64,000 nt of DNA from Synechococcus sp. RS9916 (lineage in GTDB: Bacteria > Cyanobacteriota > Cyanobacteriia > PCC-6307 > Cyanobiaceae), in assembly GCF_000153825.1 (NCBI RefSeq), contig NZ_DS022299.1, positions 956,869 through 1,020,868 on the forward strand, in the 5' to 3' direction. The notes beneath the pieces were generated by a model. It was not told where the DNA came from, ran no database searches, and saw only the letters and a list, made by a program, of their open reading frames with translations. The position numbers and the translations under genes are program-made. Positions 4,176 through 40,386 of the stretch are shown in pieces. Positions within the stretch are counted from its first letter, which is position 1. Each line of letters begins with the position of its first letter.

Positions 4176-5339
4176 ATGGGGTCAACGCCCATCCGCCACC
4201 GATCAACGGGAACAACCGGATGGTGGTGCGGAGGGTTGGTCACAGCTTTAACCCTCTGGGCAGGTTCGGCCGCATTGGCAGCCCCGCAAAGGCCCCTTGG
4301 TGTGTGGATCACCAACAGCCCAAGCCTGGTGTATTACGACCACGGCCTGATCAGGAAAACCGTGGAGGAACTGGATCAGGCCGGATTCACGACGATTTAC
4401 CCGAATGTATGGAGCCGCGGCACCACGTTTCACCGCAGCCGTTTTGCACCGGTGGAGCCCAGCCTGGTCAAAGCCGGCATCGACCTCGACCCGATCTGTA
4501 CGTTCAACACCGAAGCGCGCAAGCGGGGGATGAAGGTCATCCCCTGGTTTGAATATGGGCTGATGGAGCCAGCGGATTCTCCTGTGGTGGAGGACCATCC
4601 GGAATGGGTACTGGCAAAAGCAGATGGCAATCCAATCGTGCGCCTTCATGGCAAGGACATGGTGTGGCTCAATCCAGCTCACCCAGAGGTTCGCGAACGC
4701 TTCATCGGGCTGGTGGTGGAAGTGATGCAGCGCTGCCCCATGGATGGATTGCAGCTGGATGACCACTTCGCCTGGCCCGTGGAACTCGGCTACGACCCTT
4801 ACACCGTGGCCTTGTATGCGCGTGAAACCGGTTTCAAACCACCCAAGGATCACACCAACCGGATGTGGATGACCTGGCGACGGCGCAAGCTGACGGGCTT
4901 GTTGCGAGAGTTACGGGAGCGGCTGGAACTGGAGGCTTTACCGAAACGGATTTCCTTGTCACCGGGGCCGTTCCGCTTTGCCTACAACCACTGGCTTCAA
5001 GACTGGGAGCTGTGGGCAGTGGGCGAGCTGATTGACGACCTTGTTGTGCAGAACTACGCCTACTCCTTGGAGGGATTTGCAAAAGATTTGGACCAGCCAG
5101 CCTTGCGCAAGGCTCGGCAATGGGGAATCCCCGTTCAAATCGGAATTCTGGCTGGATTTGGCAAACGGACGACAACGATGCCCGTGTTAACTGAAAAAAT
5201 GCGCCTGAGCCATGAACGGGGTTACGGCGTGATTTTCTTCTACTGGGAAGGTCTCTGGGGCGCCCACTCCGGTAAGGAGGGCGCAAGCTTCCGTCGCGAG
5301 GCATTCCGCCAACTGGGAGGCACAAAAAAGCCCCGCTAA
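4176..5339 (+). CDS. Exported GHL10/DUF187-type glycoside hydrolase
   Basis: The protein has 387 residues with an N-terminal signal peptide (hydrophobic stretch about 17-36, ending SAALAAPQ). The TIM-barrel region shows PLGVWITNSPS, TTIYPNVWSRG, MKVIPWFEYGLM, MVWLNPAHPEVRE and MDGLQLDDHFAWP. These are hallmarks of the DUF187/GHL10 family, which includes E. coli DigH (YddW), a lysozyme-like hydrolase of denuded peptidoglycan glycan strands. The paired acids in LQLDDHF are candidate catalytic residues. A periplasmic cell-wall role is inferred from the family. It probably shares a transcript with prs. The terminator of the convergent cyAbrB gene lies inside its last codons. Confidence 0.85.
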   Translation: MGSTPIRHRSTGTTGWWCGGLVTALTLWAGSAALAAPQRPLGVWITNSPSLVYYDHGLIRKTVEELDQAGFTTIYPNVWSRGTTFHRSRFAPVEPSLVKAGIDLDPICTFNTEARKRGMKVIPWFEYGLMEPADSPVVEDHPEWVLAKADGNPIVRLHGKDMVWLNPAHPEVRERFIGLVVEVMQRCPMDGLQLDDHFAWPVELGYDPYTVALYARETGFKPPKDHTNRMWMTWRRRKLTGLLRELRERLELEALPKRISLSPGPFRFAYNHWLQDWELWAVGELIDDLVVQNYAYSLEGFAKDLDQPALRKARQWGIPVQIGILAGFGKRTTTMPVLTEKMRLSHERGYGVIFFYWEGLWGAHSGKEGASFRREAFRQLGGTKKPR

Positions 5340-5347
5340 TGCGGGGC
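5324..5347 (-). terminator. Rho-independent terminator of the cyAbrB gene
   Basis: On the minus strand a perfect 7-bp stem (GCCCCGC/GCGGGGC) with a 4-nt loop is followed directly by six T residues. It lies 26 nt past the cyAbrB stop and is embedded in the final codons and stop of the opposite-strand GHL10 gene. Confidence 0.9.
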
Positions 5348-5372: not shown

Positions 5373-5768
5373 TCACTCCTCACCGTCGTCCATGGCAGCA
5401 CTACCGCTATGCGCTGCAGCCGCGCCGGTGGGAATCAGGCGAATGGCCTTCTTCCCAAGCTTGATTTCAAACTCATCACCAGGCTCAAGGTTGAGCATGG
5501 CGGTGTATGCCTTGCCGATCAACAGGTTGCCGTTGCCCTGAACGGTTGCCACATAAGAGAGCTTGCGACCACCTTTACCAATGCCCTTCGTGCCAGTTCC
5601 CAGATCAATGCCCTTGGCATTGAGCAGAGCTTCATAGAAGGCGGTGAAGTTGACCCGCTGACCACCGTCTTTTTTATCGGAAACGTACCCACAGGCCGTG
5701 GCCAGATCTGTTTTGGACACATCACCCAAATCTTTGACCTTGGCCAGCAGTTCAGAACCGGTGAGCAT
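5373..5768 (-). CDS. cyAbrB-family transcriptional regulator
   Basis: The protein has 131 residues from the ATG at 5768, beginning MLTGSELLAKVKDLG; a longer in-frame start adds 12 unlikely residues. The N-terminal half (SKTDLATACGYVSDKKDGGQ, NFTAFYEALLNAKG) is typical of the cyanobacterial AbrB family. The C-terminal half carries the swapped-hairpin AbrB DNA-binding domain (LLIGKAYTAMLNLEPGDEFEIKLG). cyAbrB proteins are DNA-binding proteins that affect carbon and nitrogen regulation and act partly as nucleoid-associated factors. It ends in a strong terminator, and a 10-bp inverted repeat lies 60-88 nt upstream. Confidence 0.9.
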   Translation of the reverse strand: MLTGSELLAKVKDLGDVSKTDLATACGYVSDKKDGGQRVNFTAFYEALLNAKGIDLGTGTKGIGKGGRKLSYVATVQGNGNLLIGKAYTAMLNLEPGDEFEIKLGKKAIRLIPTGAAAAHSGSAAMDDGEE

Positions 5769-5827
5769 TACCGTCGAGAGGAATAACTGACTCAAAAGAT
5801 ACACATCAAAGCATCAGTTATGCAAGA

Positions 5828-5856
5828 CATGCATCGAAAACCTCAGTCGATGCATG
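5828..5856. promoter_or_regulatory. 10-bp inverted repeat upstream of cyAbrB
   Basis: CATGCATCGA at 5828-5837 is exactly inverted as TCGATGCATG at 5847-5856, with a 9-nt spacer. It lies 60-88 nt upstream of the cyAbrB start. Neither strand has a T-run after it, so it is not terminator-like; an operator, possibly autoregulatory, is the simplest reading. This is inference from symmetry and position only. Confidence 0.45.
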
Positions 5857-5879
5857 CAAAAAACCAACGCAAAGCTTGG

Positions 5880-6027
5880 TAACAACAATCAAATGCACGC
5901 TTTCGAGCTCCAAGCCGCCTGTGGAAAAGCAGGGTGCGCCTTACCCGCAGCTTCCCCACAAAACGACCAGAACACGGTAAGCTGTGGAAATCACCATCAC
6001 CCGGCCGGTCTCTTGACCGGCTTTTTT
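5880..6027 (+). ncRNA. Candidate unannotated small RNA ending at an orphan terminator
   Basis: The 314-nt gap between the cyAbrB start and the pepN stop has no convincing reading frame, yet contains a strong plus-strand terminator. No plus-strand gene lies upstream: the nearest, GHL10, ends 660 nt earlier. Within the gap, complementary-looking runs (gtggaaaagc, cttccccac, gctgtggaa) could form structure. The 5' end given is arbitrary. It could be a trans-acting sRNA or the 3' end of an antisense transcript of cyAbrB. Evidence is only the orphan terminator. Confidence 0.4.
6004..6027 (+). terminator. Orphan plus-strand rho-independent terminator
   Basis: A perfect 7-bp stem GCCGGTC/GACCGGC with the loop TCTT is followed by six T residues (6022-6027). 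The reverse strand has no T-run after the hairpin, so it does not serve pepN. Confidence 0.85.
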
Positions 6028-6082
6028 GTGGAAAAACGCAGCCATAAGGGCCGGCGTGATCGTTTTGGGGAAAACGGAGTGA

Positions 6083-40324: not shown

Positions 40325-40386
40325 GCGTGCGGGCCTCTGCTCGCACACTCCTCACACCCCCCGGCCCGGCGCGATCGGGCTTTTTG
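40325..40386 (+). ncRNA. yfr1: Yfr1 small regulatory RNA
   Basis: The element has two hairpins around an unpaired signature. The 5' stem is GTGCG/CGCAC (40327-40331, 40342-40346). The invariant single-stranded motif ACTCCTCACAC is at 40347-40357. The 3' terminator stem GCCCG/CGGGC (40364-40368, 40376-40380) is followed by five T residues. Size, motif and location between guaB and trxA match Yfr1, an abundant cyanobacterial sRNA. In Prochlorococcus it pairs with porin (som) mRNAs through this motif. TAAGGT at about 40315 may be the -10 box. Confidence 0.95.

Follow-up and report, generated by a model that had tools for sequence, protein, structure and literature searches.

The 314-nt gap between cyAbrB (PF14250) and pepN (TIGR02414), both on the minus strand, belongs to the 64,000-nt stretch of Synechococcus sp. 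RS9916 DNA that we analyzed (the window). The last plus-strand gene upstream encodes a GHL10 domain (4176 to 5339) and ends 664 nt before an intrinsic terminator in the gap. The initial annotation had reported a strong terminator with no plus-strand gene upstream for about 660 nt, in a gap that held no convincing reading frame, and we likewise found no convincing plus-strand open reading frame (ORF) there. The plus-strand letters at 6004 to 6027 are GCCGGTC-TCTT-GACCGGC-TTTTTT, exactly the perfect 7-bp stem plus six T residues that had been described. A G-U pair (6003/6022) extends the stem to 8 bp, and the whole terminator (8-bp stem, TCTT loop, T6) occupies 6003 to 6027 as the 3′ part of the small RNA (sRNA) predicted below. 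A consensus scan of 5.5 kb returned 8 terminator-like sites, about the chance number (5.9 in shuffles; standard deviation, 2.8), and found no sigma-70-type promoter. Since the terminator and promoter scan did not rise above chance, the case for an sRNA rests on comparison. Upstream of cyAbrB there is also an inverted repeat (TGCATCGA and TCGATGCA, separated by 9 nt; 5830 to 5854), possibly an operator, and a strong minus-strand terminator (5330 to 5347) is placed to end cyAbrB transcripts.

We compared the gap with a sample of 31 same-genus genomes, RS9916 itself included, as the initial annotation had proposed. Only positions 5959 to 6037 matched strongly, in three other genomes (G026, G029, and G009; 86 to 92% identity; E ≤ 6e-18), and in all three cyAbrB and pepN lie on either side of the block. 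This conservation lifts the hairpin above chance. The plus-strand block, kept between pepN and cyAbrB in RS9916 and these three genomes, comprises the predicted promoter and sRNA. The neighboring cyAbrB paralogue is 92 to 98% identical in the same three genomes, and the other cyAbrB matches listed do not exceed 88%, indicating that the arrangement is lineage specific.

Within the block, a −10-like box, TAAGCT (5978 to 5983, plus strand; TAAACT at the same place in orthologues), is the predicted sRNA promoter. Although the sigma-70 scan found no promoter, the box stands at the box-to-tail spacing of the RNA family described below, 7 nt before a tail that reads UCACCAUCACCC (5991 to 6002). The predicted RNA is 37 nt long (5991 to 6027, plus strand). 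Our model of the family, R1, matched it at G000:C1:962859-962895 (E = 1.9e-10), this copy having been in the model's own alignment. It folds with −15.7 kcal/mol (z = −4.8), leaving the 12-nt tail open. Apart from one mismatch, the tail is antisense to the site GGGUGAUGGGGA; in the alignment, an A replaces one C of the family consensus, UCCCCAUCACCC. The terminator is most likely the end of an unannotated sRNA of about 37 nt that belongs to a conserved family. Like a trans-encoded base-pairing sRNA, this copy has its own intrinsic terminator and no convincing ORF, and its conserved region, predicted to be accessible, is complementary, but for the one mismatch, to an mRNA encoded elsewhere.

We refer to the repeated unit as A. 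It consists of an unpaired tail of 12 to 13 nt (consensus, UCCCCAUCACCCG) followed by an intrinsic terminator, giving an RNA of about 37 to 45 nt. Further copies at other loci were first reached through weaker matches to the window block, and the unit is spread over the picocyanobacterial family (Synechococcus, Cyanobium, and Prochlorococcus; ocean and lake), frequently with more than one copy per genome. A scan of genome contigs with the pattern CATCACCCGGCC-N(4,30)-GGCTTTTTT matched 71 stretches. Although the pattern did not require it, CCC stood directly before it in 62 of these, among them stretches from Synechococcus WH7803, Cyanobium strains, and Prochlorococcus MIT 9201 and AH-716-I09. 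Two of the 62 (L068 and L069) carry the labels of noncyanobacterial MAGs and are probably misbinned. The other nine, from unrelated bacteria and without CCC, were dropped as chance matches, as were five viral-contig stretches that fit the loose pattern, none of which had CCC directly before CATCACCC.

In an alignment of 36 A members, a hand-picked set, the tail was almost invariant. All seven stem pairs were altered on both sides, with 91.6% of cells paired versus 68.6% in shuffles. A covariation test had also been proposed in the initial annotation, and the terminator stem columns do covary over the family. Because covariation is common to terminators in general, this supports the hairpin rather than a special fold. 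Model R1 matched 220 of 251 same-family genomes at an E value of ≤0.01, 143 of the 251 below 1e-6. When 194 genomes sampled from the phylum were searched, 24 matched at the first threshold, 12 of them outside the family; the best of these 12 reached 1.4e-5 (32 bits) and the remaining 11 at most 26.5 bits, scores that mark the level of chance matches. The three copies in RS9916 are A0 (502355), A1 (587183), and A2 (962859), the last being the one in the window. Between 3 and 7 copies (E ≤ 0.001) were found in each of six genomes of genus g5.

Many A copies have a partner. The A core is repeated 111 to 204 bp away on the same DNA strand, without the promoter or terminator of A, and the opposite strand of the repeat reads GGC[C/T]GGGTGATGGGGAT and then a terminator. 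We call this predicted divergent RNA B; it would be about 50 to 75 nt long and has a promoter-like box and a terminator of its own. Of 53 modules, 46 had a terminator after the B site, compared with an average of 4.5 over 20 shuffles, and none of the 53 had one in the opposite direction, which rules out B as a decayed A copy. A conserved peptide encoded by B was ruled out by eye, since only a motif-forced MGI recurs. The motif TAnnnT begins 15 to 21 nt before the B site in 33 of 53 distinct modules (6.2 in letter shuffles) and 12 to 14 nt before the CCCC tail of A in 31 of 53 paired modules (mean of 3.4 in letter shuffles); because modules share ancestry, none of these counts out of 53 is independent. 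In 94% of modules, versus 12% of shuffles, the spacer matched a palindrome like CACYACATATGTRGTG at 11 or more of 16 positions, with a consensus written after some modules had been viewed; the palindrome is absent near A2 (best, 8 of 16). At the sequence level, B thus appears to be a separate RNA unit with a target-like site, as would be expected of a sponge RNA. Paralogues of cyAbrB, of which there are several per genome, lie about 0.2 to 4 kb from A or B sites in RS9916 (window positions 5373 to 5804 and G000:C1:582486-582860), G001, G005, G006, and G011.

The exact antisense of the tail, GGGUGAUGGGG, is carried by two types of RNA: B and the 5′ leader, C, of a gene for a DUF565 protein (Ycf20-like; PF04483), a family that we take to be the one named Ycf20. 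All 30 same-genus loci with a DUF565 gene have the antisense site upstream of it, and a search tolerating three mismatches found the site exact or with one change in 29 of 29; one genome (G014; 58% complete) gave no DUF565 match. Some leaders have a GGCAGGG/CCCTGCC frame and others do not; the site is retained in both sorts. An ungapped identity profile covered 29 leaders that had been selected by motif, and it is hence not independent evidence. The first 16 nt of A pair with the RS9916 leader at −37.1 (A0), −36.2 (A1), and −30.0 (A2) kcal/mol, and for each copy none of 1,000 dinucleotide-shuffled leaders paired as well. The 12-mer CGGGTGATGGGG had 180 matches in 31 genomes versus 2 for a reversed control, a count that overstates true sites: in RS9916, four of nine are A0, A1, B, and C, and five are inside long frames of other genes. 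We found no compensatory change between the A tail and the C site; tail changes in L003, L004, and A2 are uncompensated. A palindrome like that of the B-A modules also occurs at some DUF565 promoters and may be where a common transcription factor binds.

A leader ORF (MG[I/T]...) begins at the AUG inside the site and often extends over the DUF565 start. With DUF565 start codons as chosen in this analysis, the leader stop and the DUF565 start share 4 nt in 18 of 30 same-genus loci and 1 nt in 1; the stop falls 6 to 12 nt short in 8, the leader ORF continues in frame into DUF565 in 1, and the overlap is out of frame in 2. Among 10 other-genus loci with the site, four have the 4-nt overlap (L247, L259, L260, and L271), two are in-frame fusions (L256 and L267), three are neither (L264, L268, and L270), and one (L258) was left out of the reading. 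Four further loci comprise an in-frame fusion (L054) and three with neither arrangement (L062, L084, and L114). By our reading of the loci, made with no tree, about seven lineages show the stop/start overlap, and their leader ORFs range from 13 to 39 codons. Since an [A/G/T]TGA stop creates an overlapping start automatically if the frames fit, and since the loci are related, the overlap counts are weak evidence.

Because the first bases of A are the reverse complement of the start site before DUF565, A probably lowers DUF565 translation. The family, the promoter-like box, the covarying stem, and the presence in B and C of a site exactly antisense to the tail are features of the sequences themselves; from them we infer transcription of A and B and the following course of events. 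The A tail would cover the leader ORF start codon by pairing and block ribosome entry there; through translational coupling, a blocked leader ORF would yield less DUF565 protein; and the decoy site of B would titrate A. Our preferred reading, held with fair confidence, is that positions 5991 to 6027 are one copy of a family of trans-acting antisense sRNAs that block translation initiation of DUF565, with B as the sponge. The window copy itself is a lineage-specific extra copy next to a cyAbrB paralogue, and the mismatch in its tail suggests that it may be weaker or differently regulated.

Outside the genus, 30 genomes of other genera were searched for C; 10 have it, two of these with one mismatch, and it was not found in the other 20, G033 (L265) among them. 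All 10 genomes with C have A (3.6e-10 or better). Of the 20 without it, A scored below 1e-6 in 10 (1.3e-12 in G048), was weaker in 8, and was missing in 2. Moreover, eight genomes without the DUF565 site that resemble Prochlorococcus in size and AT content (G031, G047, G056, G061, G068, G081, G085, and G144) have B-A modules. The A/B pair is therefore wider than the A/C pair, A must have other partners in those genomes, and DUF565 cannot be its only or ancestral partner. These genomes lend some weight to a reading that we consider possible though clearly less probable than our own, in which A acts mainly on B, or B on A, with the DUF565 leader recruited only secondarily and in particular lineages. 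Against this stands the presence of the site in every same-genus DUF565 leader. So, too, do six other-genus loci (L054, L062, L084, L114, L264, and L268) in which some 130 bp separate A from the site that it precedes, with DUF565 following on the same strand, and in which we found no B in the fetched DNA.

The initial annotation had left two explanations of the terminator: an intergenic sRNA ending there or a long antisense transcript over cyAbrB. We regard as improbable the wider proposal that the hairpin is a mere terminator of a long plus-strand transcript, whether by read-through from the GHL10 gene or as cyAbrB antisense. The hairpin at 5330 to 5347 has its T-run on the minus strand only, the scan found no plus-strand terminator between 5339 and 6003, and a passing transcript could still terminate at the hairpin. 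However, strong conservation sets in only at about 5959 and does not extend over the region upstream of cyAbrB, the −10-like box stands at the family spacing, and box and tail recur as a unit at unrelated loci. Comparison thus strongly supports the intergenic sRNA, at about 37 nt far shorter than the gap, and does not support the long antisense transcript.

A slightly less probable proposal, and one that we doubt, is that each A copy is the terminated leader (attenuator) of a gene downstream of it and not a trans-acting sRNA. A0 (G000:C1:502355-502397; L187 and L161) lies about 10 nt upstream of trpD (TIGR01245; E = 1.5e-110) on the same strand, and an A copy is similarly placed before trpD in other genomes, as judged by eye. 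From its position, A0 may double as a transcription attenuator of trpD. The window copy, in contrast, has no same-strand gene downstream, pepN being on the other strand. Least probable is a functionless mobile or REP-like repeat: there are several copies per genome at varying places, and two G061 modules have 271 nt in common at 86% identity, but compared copies within G197, G235, and G264 have no more than 81 nt in common, the stem changes by compensation while the tail is fixed, and the antisense is fixed in the DUF565 leader.

The antisense reading that we prefer can be extended, tentatively, to a family-wide circuit, in which sRNAs of about 40 nt made of tail and terminator would face divergent anti-sRNAs with complementary 5′ ends, the two competing for the start codon of a leader ORF translationally coupled to DUF565. 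Pairing with the partner also takes the first bases of the terminator arm, so that it could cause antitermination before trpD.

Few photosynthetic organisms are as abundant as marine picocyanobacteria. To our knowledge, a target is known for only a small number of their regulatory RNAs. Here, a family of tiny sRNAs, their partner RNA, and a target site that is specific, conserved, and placed at a start codon are all predicted from sequence alone, so that function can be tested with a two-plasmid reporter. Ycf20 has been linked to photoprotection in algae and plants, and the A family gives a handle on the DUF565 (Ycf20-like) gene, a small gene whose function is unknown.

Among the sources available to us, some in part, we found no published account of the A family, its motif, or its DUF565 site; RNA sequencing papers under subscription may list copies. 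The available parts of PMC7368042, PMC6202907, and PMC1242208 mention no such RNA, and that of PMC1242208 does not name trpD, pepN, AbrB, or ycf20. As described in the accessible portion of PMC5069720, Yfr103 is a multicopy, very abundant RNA of marine Synechococcus and some Prochlorococcus, with paralogues of 290 to 328 nt and a palindrome upstream of its start site. The A family is also multicopy and has a palindrome near many A and B promoters. In contrast to the length of Yfr103, the A copies compared in G197, G235, and G264 have at most 81 nt in common, Yfr103 being compared by its description. Since the common stretch is that short in these three genomes, though 271 nt in two modules of G061, the B-A module is unlikely to be identical to Yfr103.

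A close parallel is with Yfr1/Yfr10 and Yfr2. According to the part of PMC6778093 available, these picocyanobacterial sRNAs have nearly complementary conserved motifs, Yfr2 interferes with the action of Yfr1/Yfr10 on mRNAs (pulldown, reporter, and in vitro evidence), and in HL Prochlorococcus yfr10 lies upstream of yfr2 homologues. A and B, too, are predicted small RNAs with complementary conserved motifs. Compared with that partial account, the A/B motif is a different one (CCCCAUCACCC/GGGUGAUGGGG), A is only a tail and a terminator, A and B are divergent, and a fixed leader target is visible in the sequence. The Yfr1 model (RF01116) has its sole match in the 64,000-nt window at 40327 to 40383 (68.5 bits) and so does not correspond to A2.

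With Rfam 15, the window copy matched no family at the gathering score, and at an E value of ≤1 nothing fell on the A, B, or C sites of 10 loci. The matches near those loci (Cyano-1, a tRNA, and three below threshold) cover none of the three. Cyano-1 (RF01701) is, like A and B, a picocyanobacterial sRNA, and it lies about 250 to 300 bases from A-B modules in two loci (L005, 1780 to 1843; L006, 1218 to 1281), but it is a separate family and covers neither A nor B. With the general class of trans-encoded antisense sRNAs that cover a ribosome-binding site, and with their sponges, A shares a short accessible seed antisense to a start codon region, and B the decoy with the same site. A differs from that class in being unusually short and in a predicted pairing that spans the AUG of a leader ORF.
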